NCBI GenBank assembly: GCA_017615355.1
Contig: JAGAAJ010000001.1
Coordinates: 1-48,205, forward strand
Direction of reading: 5' to 3'
Length of the DNA: 48,205 bases
Source of the DNA: Prevotella sp.
Lineage (GTDB): Bacteria; Bacteroidota; Bacteroidia; Bacteroidales; Bacteroidaceae
Below the pieces are notes generated by a model. That model was not told the DNA's origin. It searched no databases and was given only the letters and a program-made list of their open reading frames with translations. Positions 2,228-9,589 of the stretch are shown one piece after another. Made by a program: the position numbers and the translations under genes. Every line of letters starts with the position of its first letter. The first letter of the stretch is position 1.

Positions 2228-2261
2228 TGAGGAGCCCGCCGTAAGAACGACAGGCCCCTCA
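2228..2261 (-). terminator. trp operon attenuator (intrinsic terminator)
   Basis: On the minus strand a 15-bp stem (three G-U pairs) closes a 4-base UCUU loop and is followed by CTTTTTG. It lies between the leader peptide stop (2308) and the trpB start (2174), the position expected of a transcription attenuator. I did not find a convincing alternative antiterminator pairing by eye. Confidence 0.85.
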
Positions 2262-2307
2262 GTATTTTCTTTGCTAAACTTGCAGGTACGCGACTATCTT
2301 CTCACGA

Positions 2308-2358
2308 TTATTCGAATCTTGAGCTGCGCCACCACCAATAGTTTGCTTTTCTTGTCAT
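2308..2358 (-). CDS. trpL: trp leader peptide (MTRKANYWWWRSSRFE)
   Basis: A 16-residue ORF on the minus strand starts at 2358 and ends with TAA at 2308-2310. It has three consecutive TGG codons at residues 8-10. It lies 36 bases downstream of a good Bacteroidetes -7 box and 47 bases upstream of a strong intrinsic terminator, which precedes trpB. Three adjacent Trp codons in 16 residues, directly ahead of trpB, is very unlikely by chance. The expected role, from the general attenuation mechanism, is that ribosome stalling at the Trp codons when tryptophan is scarce prevents terminator formation. The mechanism is inferred; the peptide, its position and the terminator are visible. Confidence 0.85.
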   Translation of the reverse strand: MTRKANYWWWRSSRFE

Positions 2359-2400
2359 TGTTTTTTCAGACTTTTACGCCCTTTTGTTTATTTTCGTCGG

Positions 2401-2431
2401 CAAAAGTACATATTTTCTATCAATCTGCAAA
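2401..2431 (-). promoter_or_regulatory. trp operon promoter
   Basis: On the minus strand, TTTG (2428-2431) and TACTTTTG (2401-2408) are separated by 19 bases, matching the Bacteroidetes TTTG/TAnnTTTG promoter. The predicted start lies about 35 bases before the leader peptide. Confidence 0.75.
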
Positions 2432-2554: not shown

Positions 2555-4282
2555 TTATTTGAAGTCGGTGATAGCAGGAAGAACCTTTGCCTTTGCAGCC
2601 TTCTTCACGGGAATCAGGCTTGTGTTGGCGCTGGGCATCTGCTTCTTGTCAAGACCGAGGGCACGAGCCTGGGCGGGAGTGAGTGTGAAGATCTCCTCAC
2701 CCTTGCCGAAGACACCTTGAGAGACAAAGTAGGCCACACGGAAGTGGAAGGCGAGCGTCTCAGGGTCGTAGTAGCTCTGTCCTAAAGCCCAAGCGGGATT
2801 CAGGGCATCAGCCTCGCCAATGTACACGTCGCCATAGGTACTGTGTGTGTAGCCGGTGAACTGGTTGGGCACCGTGACCAAGTTGGTATTCTTATCCATC
2901 TTGAAAGTGAAGTCTACGTCGTAGCCCCAGTGAGTAATGCGGTAGACATCTTCCTCAGCGTTGTATTGCAGCTCGAGGCCTGGATCGGTTGCCGGGTCGT
3001 CTGCACTACCGAAGAAGAGCGTGTATACGTAGTCACCAACACCTACAGATTCCCAAGGGTTGGCCGAACCACCATAATATTCAAAGTCTGCAGTATAGCC
3101 TTCTTTCAACTCGCCATCGTCAACAACCACCACCAGCAAAGAAAGCTTGCCGACCAGCCCCTCGGGAATAGGCACAAAGTTATAGCCATTGACCACGGGT
3201 GTTGACTCAACCTCGTCACTCAGCAAGGCAGCTGCTGCTTCGTCCTTGTCGGCATCGGCACTTACTATAACGGCTCTGACATCGGTAGCATCAGCACCCA
3301 AGGAAGCCGTAAATCCGAAAGAAGCCTGACCATTTGCATCGGTCAAGATGCCAAGAGGCTCTGCCTCAATAGAGAAGTCCTTCTTATAGAAGCCAGGGAA
3401 GACAATGCTCACCATACCATCGTTCTGCGAATAGTTCCATCCACCAACGCTGAACATGTAGTAGCGCGGGGCCAGCTGGATTTCGCCAGGCAGACCGTTC
3501 TCCTGATACTCAATCACATAGCTGTGCAACCAATACTCCTCAGGACCAGTGTTGGTGAAACGGGAAGGATGCAGAATATAGATGTCATCGTCATAGCTGG
3601 GATGATGGTAGCCAGTGTTGTAGTCGCCCCAATATACGAGGTCGTTCTGCGTCACGGTAACACCACGCACTTCATCTCCGGGTTTGAGGATGCGTATCTC
3701 AAGATATTCATCCTGGTTGCCGTCATCCACAGAATTATAGGCTCCATAGATACGGAACACATTGGTGTCCTCAGTGTTCTGCATAATGGTCACCTTTTCG
3801 GAGTTCTCAAAGAAGTCGTCATAGTAGGTACCAGTACCCAGAGTCTTGTAGGGCGACAGGGCGCCTGCACTGAAGGCATAGACAGTCGAACCATAGGCCG
3901 ATGTCAAGTCGGTGCTTGTGATGCTGATGGTATCAGGCACAAACTTGTCGTAGACCATCTTCGTATTGTCATAACCGACAGTGATGATAGCCTCATTCTG
4001 ACCGGCAGCAAACGATACGCTGGCGGGGACATTGTAGAAGCCCGTGGTGTCGGTATGAGCCAGATTCACCGTGATGGCTTCGTCAGTCTTCACGCGCTTG
4101 ATGGGCACAGTGAACTCGGAGCCGCTCATGGGAATCTCTATCTTGGAAGCGAGGTTATTGGCGAAATAGACCTGCTGTCCGCTAACAGTAGCCCACTGAT
4201 AGTCGTCGTCGTCGTTGGAGCAGGCGGTAAAGCCGACCACAGCAACGAGGGCTACGCACAAACTATAAAAATATTTTTTCAT
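2555..4282 (-). CDS. SusCD-associated surface lipoprotein
   Basis: Predicted outer-membrane lipoprotein of 575 aa in the third position of a susC-susD operon, where glycan-binding SusE/SusF-like proteins usually sit. The signal peptide MKKYFYSLCVALVAVVGFTAC ends in a lipobox, and the mature N-terminus CSNDDDD fits the acidic surface-export signal of Bacteroidetes lipoproteins. The first 130 residues are beta-rich and resemble an Ig- or Calx-beta-like module; the rest is rich in Tyr, Trp and Gly, consistent with carbohydrate binding. I do not recognise a named family. It starts 37 bases after susD and is followed by a terminator. A glycan-binding role is inferred from position. Confidence 0.8.
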   Translation of the reverse strand: MKKYFYSLCVALVAVVGFTACSNDDDDYQWATVSGQQVYFANNLASKIEIPMSGSEFTVPIKRVKTDEAITVNLAHTDTTGFYNVPASVSFAAGQNEAIITVGYDNTKMVYDKFVPDTISITSTDLTSAYGSTVYAFSAGALSPYKTLGTGTYYDDFFENSEKVTIMQNTEDTNVFRIYGAYNSVDDGNQDEYLEIRILKPGDEVRGVTVTQNDLVYWGDYNTGYHHPSYDDDIYILHPSRFTNTGPEEYWLHSYVIEYQENGLPGEIQLAPRYYMFSVGGWNYSQNDGMVSIVFPGFYKKDFSIEAEPLGILTDANGQASFGFTASLGADATDVRAVIVSADADKDEAAAALLSDEVESTPVVNGYNFVPIPEGLVGKLSLLVVVVDDGELKEGYTADFEYYGGSANPWESVGVGDYVYTLFFGSADDPATDPGLELQYNAEEDVYRITHWGYDVDFTFKMDKNTNLVTVPNQFTGYTHSTYGDVYIGEADALNPAWALGQSYYDPETLAFHFRVAYFVSQGVFGKGEEIFTLTPAQARALGLDKKQMPSANTSLIPVKKAAKAKVLPAITDFK

Positions 4283-4319
4283 AACAGTGTTTCTTTTTAT
4301 TGATTGAATGACTCAAAAC

Positions 4320-6023
4320 TTACCAGACGTACTCCTCAGAGTTCTTGCCAGGATACTGCGGGTCCTTGTTGTTGGTGCAGTCATAGTTGTAGTTGGTCTC
4401 GGTCTGCACGATACACCAGTTCATCCATTCAGGCGTAGTCTCGCTGTTGTAGCGGTAGCCGTCGGTGTGGTTCGAACCAGCATAGCTGCGGATGATACCC
4501 TTCTGCAGACGCTTGATGTCGAAGGTAGCCATACCCTCACCCCAGAACTCAACGCGGCGCTGCCACCAGCACTCATTCTGGAACTTGGAAGTCGTAGTGT
4601 TGTAGTAAGCCTCGTTGTGAGTGCCATATACGTAGTCGGCATCGCGGGTCTTAGCGAACTTGGTGAGCAGCTCAATGCCGCGAGCCTCGTTCTGCATACC
4701 TGCAGCCTCAGCCTCGATGAGGTACATCTCCTCAACGCGCATAATAGGAACAGCAACCACAAAGCCAATATACTGGTTGTCGCGTCCAGCCTCACCGCCA
4801 GCGGTGCGGAACTTCAGGGGCAGACCACCCACCTTGCCGTAGCCGCGTGCAGCCAGACCAGTATTGATGAGCCAGTCGGGATGGTTGGAGTAAGCGCTCA
4901 GAGCTTCCAAACCCTCGGGTGTGGGATTGCCATCACCGTCGGCAATCTCGATGTTGTCGTCGATGGCGAAGTCTACGTAGCACTTCTTGCGGCAGTCAGT
5001 AGCGGGAATGGTCTCATAGAGGTGACGGTCGATGATGAACGGCTGGCCATAGTTGGCAGCATAACCGCAACCCGAAACCGTAGGATTGATCTCGATACAC
5101 ATCATCGAGCCCCAGCTGGAGTCAGCGTCGTTGTTCAGGATCTGTGGGTCATCGGTCTTGTAGGTCATGCCAAACATCCAAGCACCGTTAGGTGTGTTGA
5201 AGCCTGTGTTCCAGTCGGTATACTCGGCCTGGGTCATGATGGTGTAGCCATTCTGAGCCATCTTTGCATACTTCTCAGCGTTAGCCCAGTCCTCCATCTC
5301 CAGATAGGCACGTGCTTTCAAGCCGTAAACCACGCTCTGGTCAGGAGTGTAGACATCGGTACGCTTATAGTCGGCCAGCAGTGTCTCAGCCTTGTCGAGG
5401 TCGCTGAGGATGAAAGCCCACATATCCTCGTTGGTAGCACGGGGATTGTGTGCCAGGTCCTGCAGCGAGGTATTCTCGTTGACGATGGGCACGCTGACTG
5501 ACTGCTCGCCAGTCTTAGCCAGAGCATAAGGTTTCTGGGCATACATACGGGCCAGATCCATATAGAAGTAGGCACGCATAGCGTAAGCTATACCAGCACC
5601 AGCTTTCTGGTCTTCGGCAGGCTCCTCGCCAGCCATAGAAAGCACTTCGTTGCAGCTCTTGATCCATCCGTAGTAGTAGGTCCAAGGCATCTGCGACATA
5701 CGGTATGAGGGACCCAGATACTGAACGGTATACCAGTAGGTGTACCAGTTCTGATAGACATAGACAACGTCCTGTCCCATGATGTCACGCTCCAGATAGA
5801 AAGCGGGAATACCCAGGTCATAGGGATAGTTGTTGTCGCCTCCGCCATAGACGAACTCTCCGCAGAGAGTGGCCGTGATGGCAGCAACGGCATTGTTGAA
5901 GGCGCCAGGAGCACTCTTCACCTGATCGACGGTGATGGTGCTGCTCTGCGGCTCAATTTCCTTGATGCAGCTGGTTGTCGTCAACGTAGCGGCAACCGCG
6001 ATGATAGATAATATCTTTTTCAT
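4320..6023 (-). CDS. SusD/RagB-family glycan-binding lipoprotein
   Basis: Cell-surface lipoprotein that forms the lid of the SusC channel and captures oligosaccharides. I place the start at 6023 (MKKILSIIAV), six codons inside the longest frame, because this gives a clean signal peptide ending in the lipobox TTTSC; the acidic CIKEIEP follows. The protein is 567 aa, usual for the family. The N-terminal half has the helical TPR-like pattern of SusD (WIKSCNEVL, AYAMRAYFYMDLARMYA, LKARAYLEMEDWANAEKYA). The C-terminal part has the typical VPIMRVEEMYLIEAEA and QRRVEFWGEG segments. It starts 22 bases after susC ends, so the pair is co-transcribed. The substrate cannot be read from the sequence. Confidence 0.95.
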   Translation of the reverse strand: MKKILSIIAVAATLTTTSCIKEIEPQSSTITVDQVKSAPGAFNNAVAAITATLCGEFVYGGGDNNYPYDLGIPAFYLERDIMGQDVVYVYQNWYTYWYTVQYLGPSYRMSQMPWTYYYGWIKSCNEVLSMAGEEPAEDQKAGAGIAYAMRAYFYMDLARMYAQKPYALAKTGEQSVSVPIVNENTSLQDLAHNPRATNEDMWAFILSDLDKAETLLADYKRTDVYTPDQSVVYGLKARAYLEMEDWANAEKYAKMAQNGYTIMTQAEYTDWNTGFNTPNGAWMFGMTYKTDDPQILNNDADSSWGSMMCIEINPTVSGCGYAANYGQPFIIDRHLYETIPATDCRKKCYVDFAIDDNIEIADGDGNPTPEGLEALSAYSNHPDWLINTGLAARGYGKVGGLPLKFRTAGGEAGRDNQYIGFVVAVPIMRVEEMYLIEAEAAGMQNEARGIELLTKFAKTRDADYVYGTHNEAYYNTTTSKFQNECWWQRRVEFWGEGMATFDIKRLQKGIIRSYAGSNHTDGYRYNSETTPEWMNWCIVQTETNYNYDCTNNKDPQYPGKNSEEYVW

Positions 6024-6045
6024 ATTGCTTGTTTCCTCCATGATT

Positions 6046-9000
6046 TTAGAATGTCAACTGAATACCACCGGAGATAGTGCGTACAGGCGAGTAGGTGTTG
6101 ATAGACTTCACGCTACCGTAGCTCTGACGCGGGTCGAAGCCCTGACGCTTGGACCAGAGATAGAGGTTCTCACCCGAGCAGTAAACGCGGATGTTCTGCA
6201 GTCCAGCCTTGGTGATAAGGCTCTTGGGGAGAGTGTAACCGACAGTAAACGACTGGAAGTTCAGGTAAGAGGCATTGGTCAGGAAACGATCGCTGCCGTA
6301 TGCTGAGTAGTTGTCGCCAAACTGCCAGCGGGGGAAGTTGCTGCTTGTGTTGGTGGGTGAATAGGCAGTGAGCACATCCTTGTGGAAGGTGCTACCGGCA
6401 TCAGAGGTGCTGGTGCCAGGACCTACGAGACCTGCATACTGCGAGTCGTAGACCTTGCCGCCCAACTGATAGTCAAACGATGCGGTGACGTCGAAGTCAT
6501 AGAAGCGCAGGCTGGTGGAGAAACCGCCGAATGCCTTAGGCAGGATAGAGCCGTTGGCATAGCGCTGGGCCTGACCGATATCAGTGGTAGCGCCGCTCTT
6601 CTCAGTACCAGGCTTGTTCACGACGTTAGTACCTGTCCATGTGACATTGCCGTCATCATCAGTCTCGCTGCTGAAAGTGCTGTTCAAAGGCTGGCCGTCG
6701 GCACCCATGTAGGGCTGACCATTTGCATCAAGCCTGTTGGTCAGGTTCTTGTCATAGTAGTACAGGGCCAGACCGGCTTTGCTCTCATCAAATTCTGTAT
6801 CGCCAGTGAGCTGGTAGGTGTTCTGGTTGTACACACCTGCGTAGGAGTAGGTCATATAGTTGTACATCGGACCGTCGATGGTGTACCAGTAGCTGCTCTC
6901 ATAGAAGCCGCCGTTGTCGGCAATCTTCGTTTCGGGCAGGTCAAGGATCTTCGTCGAGTTGGTCGAGATATTGGCCGTGACGTTCCAGGTGAAGTTCTTC
7001 GTGCGAATGATATCGCCGCTCAGCACCACCTCAAGACCGCTGTTGCGCATGTCGCCGATGTTGCCGTAGTAGCCGCGTGAACCGGCGCTCTCAGGAACGG
7101 AGAGCCAGAAGAGCAGGTCGCTGATCTTCTTGTTGTAGACATCAACGCTACCAGTCAGGCGACCCTTCCACAGGCTGAACTCAATACCAGCATTGAAGTT
7201 GGTCGTGGTTTCCCATGTAATATCAGGGTTACCGATGCGGTAGAATGACGGAGTCATCGAGGTGTCAGTGGCCTTCGAGAGGCTGTAGAGGTCGATGTAG
7301 GCCCAGCTGCCGATGGCGTCGTTACCCTGCTGACCGATAGAAGCCTTAATCTTCAACTGGTCAAGCCAGCCCTTGGTGCCTTCCATAAAGTTCTCCTTCG
7401 AGATGAGCCATGCGCCGCCTACACTCCAGAACGAACCCCAACGGTGATCTTTGTGGAAGTAGGAGGTGGCATCACGACGGTAGGAAGCCGAAGCGTAGTA
7501 TTTGTCGTTGTAGTTATACTGTGCGTTGCCGAAGTAGCCTTCCACGTTGTACTCTGTGGTGTAGCTGTTCGAGCCAGACATCGTAGCGAAAGCATTCAGC
7601 TCAGGAATCTCAGCCGAGAAACCGCCGGTACGCTCTGCATAGAGGTAACGGGTCTTGGTGTCGTACCACTCGTGGCCGGCCAGCACTGTCAGCTCATGCT
7701 TGCCAAAACGGTTGGCATAGTTCAGTGTCTGGATGTGGTTCTGGCGCAGCGTGTTGCTCTGGTACTTGTAGATCTGTCCGTTCACACCCACCTTCGGGCC
7801 ATAGAGTGCATTCTCATAGTCGGAGTAGCTGGTCTGGCCTAAGTTCAGGGTGCTGTTCAGCGTAGCCTTCAAGTGCTTGGTAATCTGTGCGTCGAGCACG
7901 TAGTTGCCATGCAGCTGGTTGCCCCAAGTGTAGATCTTGTTGTAGTTATTCGAGCCGAGGGGGTTACCCGTCTGCAGGAAAGCACGACCTATACCATAGT
8001 TGGTAGCTGCCACACCGTAGTCATACTGCATGTTGCCATTGGCGTCGGTGCGGATGACAGGCTGGTTTGTAACGGGGTCGAGGATACGCACGTAGGCAGG
8101 ATAGATAGGAGCGATACGTGAGGTGTAGTAGAACATGTTGGTCGAGCCGTAGCTGTCACTCGTCAGGTTCGGGTTCGAAGTGGTCTTCGAGTGCACATAG
8201 CCGATGTTGGCAGTCATCTTCAGCCAGGGCTTCAGCTGATAGTCGGCCTTCAGGCGGGCAGTGGTACGCTGGAATCCTGAGAACTGGATGATACCATCCT
8301 CGTCCAGGTAGCTCATGCTGGCGTAGTAGGAGCCGCGCTCGTTAGCAGCGTTGGCGCTGACGGTGTACTCCTGACGCAGAGCATTGTTGTAGGCAATGTC
8401 CGTCCAATCATCGGGCGTCATGTAGTAGGTCTCGCCGTTCCAGTTGTAAGCACGGCCCAGCGTAGCGTTGGGATTCAGCTTGCCATCGGTACCCACGAGA
8501 TTCTGACCGTCAGGAAGGGTGTAGACGTTGTAGCCCAGATGATCCATCATAGTCTTGTTGGCCCAAGAGTTGGCTGCATTCACGTCCAGTCCGTTCACGT
8601 TCTTGGCGTAGTTGTTCAGCTGGTCATAATAAACCTCGTAGTACTGGGCAGGATTCTTGATGACGTCATAGTCGGGAATGGCACGTGAGTTGGAACCCCA
8701 CTTGGCATCCACGGTAATCTGTGCGTCGCGGCTCTTACCCTTCTTCGTGGTGACGATGATCACACCAGCAGCACCACGTGCACCATACAGGGCTGCAGAG
8801 GCAGCGTCCTTCAGCACGGAGACAGACTCGATGTCGTCCACGGGGATGTTGGTCAGCGATGCGCTGTAGGGAGCGCCGTCAACAATAATCAGCGGGTCGG
8901 TGCCGGCATACATAGAGGCGATACCGCGGATGTTGATGCTACCCGAGCCAGAGCCAGGAGCACCAGAGGCACCACGGATCTGCAGGCCAGGCACTGAACC

Positions 9001-9423
9001 CACGAGGGCGTCAGTAACATTAGCCACCGTGTGCTTCGACAGTTCCTCTGTGCTCAGCATTGCTGCCGAACCGGTGAAAGCACTCTTCTTAGCCGTACCA
9101 TAAGCCACCACAATCACCTCATCGAGGGCTTTCTGGTCACTTGTCAGCAGGATGCGCATGTTGGGACGGGCGCTGAGTTCCAGCGGCTCCATGCCCACGT
9201 AGGTAATGCGCAGCATGCTCTTTCCGGCAGGGACGGTCAGCGAGAACTGGCCGTTTGCATTCGTCACTGTACCGACATTGGTGCCCACGACGAGCACACT
9301 GGCGCCGATGACGGGCTGGCCATCATCCTGCGAAATCACGGTACCGTTGACTTTCGTCTGGGCCAGCGCACCTCCTACGAAAAGGAAGAGCACTGCCAGC
9401 AGTGTCATGATTCTTTTTTCCAT
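6046..9423 (-). CDS. SusC/RagA-family TonB-dependent transporter
   Basis: Outer-membrane TonB-dependent channel importing glycan pieces delivered by its SusD partner. The longest frame begins at 9561, but the start at 9423 (MEKRIMTLLAVLFLF) directly precedes a signal peptide ending at ALAQ, so I use it; the protein is 1125 aa. In order it has a carboxypeptidase-regulatory-like domain (about residues 24-105, with GTVTNANGQFSL and ITYVGMEP), the plug with IVVAYGTAKKSAFTG, GSGSINIRGIAS, IIVDGAPY and SVLKDAASAALYGARGAAG, then the 22-strand barrel ending in GGIQLTF with a terminal Phe. A roughly 155-base leader follows the predicted promoter. No sensor or anti-sigma regulator gene is next to it. 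Confidence 0.96.
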   Translation of the reverse strand: MEKRIMTLLAVLFLFVGGALAQTKVNGTVISQDDGQPVIGASVLVVGTNVGTVTNANGQFSLTVPAGKSMLRITYVGMEPLELSARPNMRILLTSDQKALDEVIVVAYGTAKKSAFTGSAAMLSTEELSKHTVANVTDALVGSVPGLQIRGASGAPGSGSGSINIRGIASMYAGTDPLIIVDGAPYSASLTNIPVDDIESVSVLKDAASAALYGARGAAGVIIVTTKKGKSRDAQITVDAKWGSNSRAIPDYDVIKNPAQYYEVYYDQLNNYAKNVNGLDVNAANSWANKTMMDHLGYNVYTLPDGQNLVGTDGKLNPNATLGRAYNWNGETYYMTPDDWTDIAYNNALRQEYTVSANAANERGSYYASMSYLDEDGIIQFSGFQRTTARLKADYQLKPWLKMTANIGYVHSKTTSNPNLTSDSYGSTNMFYYTSRIAPIYPAYVRILDPVTNQPVIRTDANGNMQYDYGVAATNYGIGRAFLQTGNPLGSNNYNKIYTWGNQLHGNYVLDAQITKHLKATLNSTLNLGQTSYSDYENALYGPKVGVNGQIYKYQSNTLRQNHIQTLNYANRFGKHELTVLAGHEWYDTKTRYLYAERTGGFSAEIPELNAFATMSGSNSYTTEYNVEGYFGNAQYNYNDKYYASASYRRDATSYFHKDHRWGSFWSVGGAWLISKENFMEGTKGWLDQLKIKASIGQQGNDAIGSWAYIDLYSLSKATDTSMTPSFYRIGNPDITWETTTNFNAGIEFSLWKGRLTGSVDVYNKKISDLLFWLSVPESAGSRGYYGNIGDMRNSGLEVVLSGDIIRTKNFTWNVTANISTNSTKILDLPETKIADNGGFYESSYWYTIDGPMYNYMTYSYAGVYNQNTYQLTGDTEFDESKAGLALYYYDKNLTNRLDANGQPYMGADGQPLNSTFSSETDDDGNVTWTGTNVVNKPGTEKSGATTDIGQAQRYANGSILPKAFGGFSTSLRFYDFDVTASFDYQLGGKVYDSQYAGLVGPGTSTSDAGSTFHKDVLTAYSPTNTSSNFPRWQFGDNYSAYGSDRFLTNASYLNFQSFTVGYTLPKSLITKAGLQNIRVYCSGENLYLWSKRQGFDPRQSYGSVKSINTYSPVRTISGGIQLTF

Positions 9424-9589
9424 AAATTCTCTCTCGTTTTTGTTTGTAAAATTGTTATTTGATTGTTCAAAATTAATAATGTACGTGTACCATACTTTAA
9501 TACAAATGCAAATCCCTTTCGAGGAGGCAGATGTCTTATTTATCCATTTTTTCAGGGGCACAAACTGCGCGCCAAATTGTTACAGTTTG

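Follow-up and report, generated by a model that had tools for sequence, protein, structure and literature searches.

A probable ribosome-mediated attenuator in the trp leader of Prevotella, related to Bacteroid-trp RNA

Architecture of the trp leader

Near its start, the window (the whole analysed stretch of 48,205 nucleotides of Prevotella sp. contig JAGAAJ010000001.1) carries a trp unit consisting of trpB and a truncated trpE, preceded by a leader, all parts of which lie on the minus strand (Table 1). The initial annotation, which gave no strand, had proposed a promoter, a 16-aa ORF with three Trp codons, a 15-bp terminator with a U-tract and trpB in this region, and each of them was recovered on the minus strand. 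The promoter is of the Bacteroidota type, for which the consensus is TTTG-N19-TAnnTTTG. For the partial trpE product the top models were TIGR00564 (171 bits) and TIGR01820 (145 bits), both scores being below the whole-protein cut-offs.

Table 1. Features of the trp leader and its surroundings in the window.
Feature	Position	Strand	Remarks
Terminator-like hairpin 3' of the upstream gene	2527-2501	-	separates the trp unit from the upstream gene
Promoter, Bacteroidota type TTTG-N19-TACTTTTG (TAnnTTTG)	2431-2401	-	-33 box 2431-2428, -7 box 2408-2401
Leader peptide ORF MTRKANYWWWRSSRFE, 16 aa	2358-2308	-	ATG at 2358, stop 2310-2308
Three adjacent Trp codons (putative sensor)	2337-2329	-	inside leader ORF MTRKANYWWWRSSRFE
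Protector hairpin (segments 1:2)	2332-2290	-	RNAalifold consensus and pair counts
Protector lower stem, including Trp codons 2-3	2332-2328 with 2294-2290	-	
Protector upper stem	2323-2315 with 2309-2301	-	
Predicted antiterminator strand (segment 2)	2307-2292	-	directly 3' of the leader stop codon
Predicted partner of the antiterminator strand (segment 3)	2256-2239	-	terminator 5' arm, loop and start of 3' arm
Intrinsic terminator hairpin (segments 3:4)	2261-2228	-	15 pairs, 9 G-C; then CTTTTTG
Terminator U-tract	2226-2222	-	
trpB, tryptophan synthase beta subunit, first gene of the unit	2174-969	-	TIGR00263, 562 bits (cut-off 392)
trpE 5' part, truncated at the contig end	938-3	-	30 nt after trpB

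The terminator has an energy of -27.1 kcal/mol and lies 53 nt before the trpB start, and the leader as a whole folds with z = -3.3, none of 200 shuffles reaching so low an energy. Among ORFs of 6-45 codons that begin with ATG, the window holds seven with a pair of adjacent Trp codons against a shuffle mean of 4.9, so that such a pair is not unusual. Three adjacent Trp codons occur in two ORFs of this class (shuffle mean 0.065), and their combination with a terminator within 90 nt occurs once in the window and in 0/200 dinucleotide shuffles; the second of the two ORFs begins at about 3189, within the neighbouring gene, and has no terminator. No comparable leader ORF with a terminator was found in the same genome before hisG or before two class-Ib synthetase genes (trpS and tyrS by eye), and R1, a covariance model described below, matched this genome once only. 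Upstream, at 2555-9561 on the minus strand, three genes encoding 575, 573 and 1171 aa resemble by eye a SusE/F-SusD-SusC glycan-uptake set.

Conservation and competing folds

We sampled 120 genomes of the genus, 94 of which carried trpB by the cut-off used. After four duplicate loci and two loci with no upstream sequence (L034, L064) had been dropped, 88 trpB upstream regions of at least 150 nt were kept; seven of the 94 genomes (G068, G071, G078, G089, G093, G096 and G114) are outside this set. A leader ORF (6-45 codons, two adjacent Trp codons, within the last 450 nt) together with a strong hairpin precedes trpB in 58 of the 88 regions, the hairpin following the ORF in all 58, with a U-rich tail that does not directly adjoin it in every row as cut. 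Among these leaders the Trp run is three codons long in 53, two in three and four in two. The full promoter motif is present in 53, the -7 box alone in three and neither in two, with the ATG used there. SD-like 4-mers at -16 to -4 were found in 0/58 leaders, the stretches in question being A-rich, which fits the interest that the initial annotation had seen in translation initiated without Shine-Dalgarno pairing.

We also examined close relatives, taking the best 80 of 571 contigs by TrpB, which are mostly Prevotella/Prevotellaceae, including P. ruminicola and Xylanibacter brevis, and some of which are genomes already in the genus sample. The leader stands before trpB in all 79 of them with 200 nt upstream (L206 was too short), and 73 of the 79 have the full promoter. 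The Trp codons and the terminator on which the initial annotation had staked its reading are thus kept in relatives. In a side observation, the 26 of 120 genus genomes in which trpB was absent by the cut-off include several that are 99% complete, and tryptophan auxotrophs may be common in the genus.

For the structural analysis, 57 genus leaders (the window and 56 relatives; L089, identical to L088, was left out) were combined in alignment A1. The protector and terminator together have 95.7% of their cells paired, 15 of 28 pairs are changed on both sides, and 0/500 shuffles were as high on any of five measures. Trp codon 1 (A1 columns 13-15) is nearly invariant and unpaired in the consensus, and the Trp-codon ORF has a fixed position relative to the protector in the 58 leaders. 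In most of them the antiterminator strand starts 27-30 nt after the first Trp codon, and in 56 of 58 the stop codon starts no more than 9 nt from the point 30 nt past that codon.

This strand (UCGYGAG...; A1 columns 44-60, window 2307-2292) pairs with columns 27-35 in the protector and could, as an alternative, pair with columns 107-125 of the terminator. It comes in two forms, CUCA/UGAG with the terminator motif UACG or UGCG, and CUCG/CGAG with GCG. An antiterminator core of eight pairs, which was picked after the duplexes were seen, is 98.5% paired, against 30-50% in slid versions, and 0, 1, 0, 21 and 0 of 500 shuffles reached it on the five measures. The full antiterminator of 16 pairs has 81.6% of cells paired and exceeds nearly all shuffles in percentage paired (0 of 500 as high), cells changed on both sides (1) and covariation (3); it is not above the shuffles in pairs changed on both sides (75/500) or pair types (185/500). 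Covariation is thus strong for protector and terminator and good for the antiterminator core; regarding the stem covariation and alternative folds that the initial annotation had pointed to, the terminator stem covaries and an alternative fold was found that, judged from the alignment, largely covaries.

The clearest case is pair 47:122, which is CG in 23 rows of A1, UA in 19, UG in 14 and another combination in one. Together with base 30 of the protector, the alignment columns 30-47-122 read GCG in 23 leaders, AUA in 18 and AUG in 14, with the exceptions GCA and UUA (one each), so that one base of the antiterminator strand tracks both partners in 55/57 leaders. Among the 66 close relatives outside A1 the triplet is GCG in 29, AUG in 26 and AUA in nine, with no contrary case and two others without a call for base 30, as found by patterns restricted to A/G, U/C and A/G for bases 30, 47 and 122, respectively. 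In a TrpB tree of 28 loci we counted four switches between the two strand forms, three of them forced by supported branches; a sign test would need more than these three to four switches of base 47. In the three independent pairs, base 30 followed base 47 every time and base 122 on average in 0.9 of three, since G suits both forms of base 47.

Cognate antiterminator duplexes were more stable than permuted ones, the permutations ignoring the relatedness of the leaders: in the genus the means were -17.2 and -15.1 kcal/mol (51 distinct pairs; L098, which has no antiterminator strand by the pattern used, was excluded), and in 49 modules outside A1 they were -17.7 and -16.0 kcal/mol, with 0/10,000 permutations as low in either set. 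The 49 modules, of which 38 belong to other genera and 11 to the genus, the latter at other trp genes, were chosen as sense matches and do not comprise all matches in the order. In 38 of them the duplex beat the row mean, and in 31 it beat 95% of shuffled strands, which the other 18 did not.

Relation to Bacteroid-trp and distribution

No Rfam family reached its cut-off in the window. A lax search with 411 bases gave RF01692 (Bacteroid-trp) as the sole trp-related match. The full model (1-131) is aligned, at 22.3 bits where the cut-off is 49. The E-value, 4.3, is meaningless alone; four unrelated families (RsaD, FsrA, rliE and FAM13A-AS1_1) had lower ones. The proteobacterial RF00513 (Trp_leader) had no match in the leader at E up to 10. 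Rfam names RF01692 the Bacteroidete tryptophan peptide leader RNA, and the setting agrees, as the window element stands before trp biosynthesis genes (trpB by TIGR00263) and the nearest named contigs are mostly Prevotella/Prevotellaceae. The RF01692 structure line shows one stem and stops within the terminator's 5' arm, whereas the window leader has in addition a terminator hairpin and a predicted antiterminator.

From A1 we built the covariance model R1. At E up to 0.001, R1 matched 96 of 120 genus genomes, although in three of these (G071, G075, G084) the best match is the terminator of another gene, and RF01692 matched 7 of 100 genus genomes, four over its cut-off, a comparison that is uneven since R1 was trained on the genus and the samples differ. 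In the order, RF01692 matched 26 of 295 genomes, 15 of them over the cut-off. Searches of more than 40 genomes use stricter filters and lose weak matches. All seven RF01692 matches in the genus and 25 of 26 in the order overlap the R1 matches listed (the 26th, in G309, is not comparable, its R1 place not being among those listed), and we therefore regard both as one family of elements. Through these intermediates the window leader is homologous to the RF01692 members. The RF01692 model itself fails to recognise the window leader and most of its close relatives.

When the listings were compared by eye, 55 of the 94 trpB genomes had contributed to the model, and one more has a sequence identical to one used there. 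Of the other 38, 32 have an R1 match on the contig and strand of trpB, no more than 5 kb upstream of it, and five have one on another contig; in G071, where trpB lies at the contig start, the best of three matches is a plain terminator (L134). Among the 26 genomes without trpB, 24 had no R1 match, and G075 and G084 had weak matches on the terminators of other genes. As an RNA model, R1 matches the trp leader of the majority of trpB-bearing genomes sampled in the genus, few of which bring the library model over its cut-off.

Further afield, R1 matched 150/295 genomes of the order (E up to 1e-3), and R2, a second model from a selection of 63 sources, matched 116/295 in the order and 66/295 in the class (E up to 1e-5). 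Weak matches (some 28-47 bits) frequently lack a Trp-codon leader, being terminators or sequence of another kind, so that these numbers count matching genomes and not attenuators. Matches with no Trp-codon leader were set aside at L131, L133-L136, L138 and L147, and likewise at L175, L177, L178, L183, L184, L186, L187, L188, L190, L193 and L194; the ORF after L186 resembles TrpS by eye, and a Trp-codon ORF was not found there. Among 26 loci that first came up at class level, a leader containing two or three adjacent Trp codons is present in 22 and absent from L163, L167, L168 and L174.

All 49 modules outside A1 have a leader with at least two Trp residues, which was a condition of the script that left none empty, and 48 have a downstream ORF. 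They stand before trpB, trpD, trpE or a TrpB-like gene, as named by eye from the N-termini, with a gap of 17 to 281 nt between the match end and the start of the next ORF. Profile tests of first genes were over the cut-off for the trpB genes of the window and L141, trpD of L144 and the TrpB-like gene of L129; TrpE of L139 was, like the partial trpE of the window, below the cut-off with anthranilate synthase models on top. A Trp-codon leader (WCW, WWW, WW or WRWRW) and a terminator precede a TrpB-like gene at L129 (G047), L130 (G070), L132 (G116) and L181 (G133), an identity that was profile-tested for L129 only (NF009057), and this paralogue is therefore probably under tryptophan control. At L179 (G413) a terminator precedes a similar gene, and no ATG-started Trp ORF was found.

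The trpB motif RF04312 of Firmicutes and Fusobacteria resembles the window element in being a leader with a terminator and a possible antiterminator that sometimes stands before trpB, and has been proposed to be a riboswitch. We dropped it as a candidate, there being no match in the window leader at E up to 10 and none over the cut-off in 198 order genomes. Five weaker matches (E up to 0.001) were seen in G195, G197, G279, G293 and G315 (L195-L198).

The Bacteroid-trp family goes back to a comparative study of 2010 (Weinberg et al. 2010; PMC2864571), and in another paper it is likened to the E. coli trp leader and placed before the trp operon of Flavobacterium psychrophilum (PMC6414381). For the same species, another report gives strong clues for leader-peptide attenuation before amino-acid operons (PMC9723704), and sORFs recalling leader peptides have been described in B. 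thetaiotaomicron in a paper whose main text does not contain trp or tryptophan (PMC7366714). A paper of 2010 stated that no leader-peptide system was known outside Proteobacteria and Actinobacteria except its own Firmicutes case and ermC (PMC2965389). Since Bacteroid-trp was already catalogued, trp attenuation had been hinted at in the phylum before the present leader. The literature searched, in which subscription journals are thinly covered, yielded no experiment on trp attenuators of Bacteroidota. What the present analysis adds is a likely antiterminator, a testable three-state structure and the distribution of the element.

Proposed attenuation, alternatives and tandem modules

The E. coli trp attenuator has a 1:2 protector, a 2:3 antiterminator, a 3:4 terminator and adjacent Trp codons in its leader, two in number. 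The window leader follows the common logic of these segments but differs in having three Trp codons, no Shine-Dalgarno sequence and trpB as first gene, and its predicted antiterminator, unlike that of E. coli, extends into the terminator loop and the first part of the 3' arm. The window RNA was folded at growing length, with an assumed ribosome footprint of 13 nt. With no ribosome, the protector formed first and then the terminator. Masking that reached 13 nt beyond either the first or the third Trp codon made the antiterminator the fold of lowest energy while the 3' end lay at 2240-2236, before the 3' arm of the terminator was complete, and this occurred only with the ribosome at the Trp codons; masking to 13 nt past the stop codon left no more than two antiterminator pairs. 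At full length the terminator was the minimum-energy fold in every ribosome state, and the antiterminator must therefore hold kinetically.

From this we infer stalling, ribosome masking and readthrough as follows. While RNA polymerase makes the leader RNA, a ribosome would translate the 16-codon ORF without Shine-Dalgarno pairing. With ample Trp-tRNA it would reach the stop codon (2310-2308) and mask the antiterminator strand (2307-2292), the terminator (2261-2228) would form and transcription would stop near 2222. With scarce Trp-tRNA it would stall at the Trp codons (2337-2329) and open the protector from its 5' side, whereupon the freed strand could pair with the emerging segment 2256-2239, pre-empting the terminator, and trpB and trpE would be transcribed. 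A leader RNA that is not translated would form protector and terminator and be off. A Trp-codon leader ORF, recognised by sequence, a terminator before the first gene and a conserved, mutually exclusive protector and antiterminator, i.e. the parts of a trp-type attenuator, were all found. We consider it very likely that transcription of the trp operon is controlled here by ribosome-mediated attenuation, through an element homologous to Bacteroid-trp; the classical attenuation proposed by the initial annotation gains support from conservation, covariation and the alternative fold.

Other explanations have to be weighed against it. A plain leader terminator with an adjacent small ORF and no response to tryptophan would be in keeping with the stability of the terminator, which exceeds that of the other parts, and with its being the full-length fold in each state modelled. 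This is highly unlikely, as the first Trp codon is nearly invariant while being unpaired in the consensus, the strand 2307-2292 keeps its complementarity to two competing partners and the element accompanies trp genes whichever of them is first. A riboswitch or a leader binding a TRAP-like protein, with incidental Trp codons, is brought to mind by a conserved two-hairpin leader with covariation, which resembles many riboswitch candidates, and by the proposal for RF04312; the Trp-codon ORF at its fixed place against the protector in 58 leaders, the lack of any Rfam family over cut-off in the window, the order-wide score of RF04312 (0/198 over cut-off, five weaker) and the absence from A1, by eye, of a conserved unpaired core apart from the Trp codons make it extremely improbable.

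Leader peptides can also act on translation, and Bacteroides tetQ is said to use translational leader-peptide control, in which case the hairpin would here hide the trpB start. The U-tract after the hairpin, the 53 nt between the terminator and the trpB start and the variable distance (17 to 281 nt) to the next ORF in other modules speak against this, and we give it scarcely any credence. If the attenuator reading is true, the leader would offer a compact test bed for the coupling of transcription and translation in bacteria thought to use little Shine-Dalgarno pairing.

The work also points to tandem trp attenuators. Whereas the window leader is a single module, six Bacteroidales genomes, i.e. 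G303 (L139), G317 (L140), G305 (L141), G333 (L142), G125 (L143) and G394 (L185), have two modules in series on the same strand, 136-144 nt apart, before a trpE-like or trpB gene. In G125, G303, G305, G317 and G333 both modules come with a Trp-codon ORF and a terminator of their own; in G394 there are two Trp-codon ORFs, and the terminators rest on model matches. At L139 and L143 each strand pairs better with the terminator of the other module than with its own, whereas at L140, L141 and L142 the own partner is better. In Salmonella mgtCBR, two leader-ORF attenuators in series respond to two signals, ATP and proline; the Bacteroidales modules are likewise serial, but both carry Trp codons. One targeted literature search, judged by titles and the start of abstracts, gave no description of tandem trp attenuators. 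There is perhaps an even chance that Bacteroidota use a complete three-state trp attenuator that works without Shine-Dalgarno pairing, needs close coupling of ribosome and polymerase and has been doubled in several lineages, where it could give a steeper or two-step response with possible cross-pairing.

The leader of one Prevotella relative (L203), MTKTANFCWW, reads Cys-Trp-Trp at the site of the three Trp codons of its neighbours, and thus represents a natural variant of the sensor.
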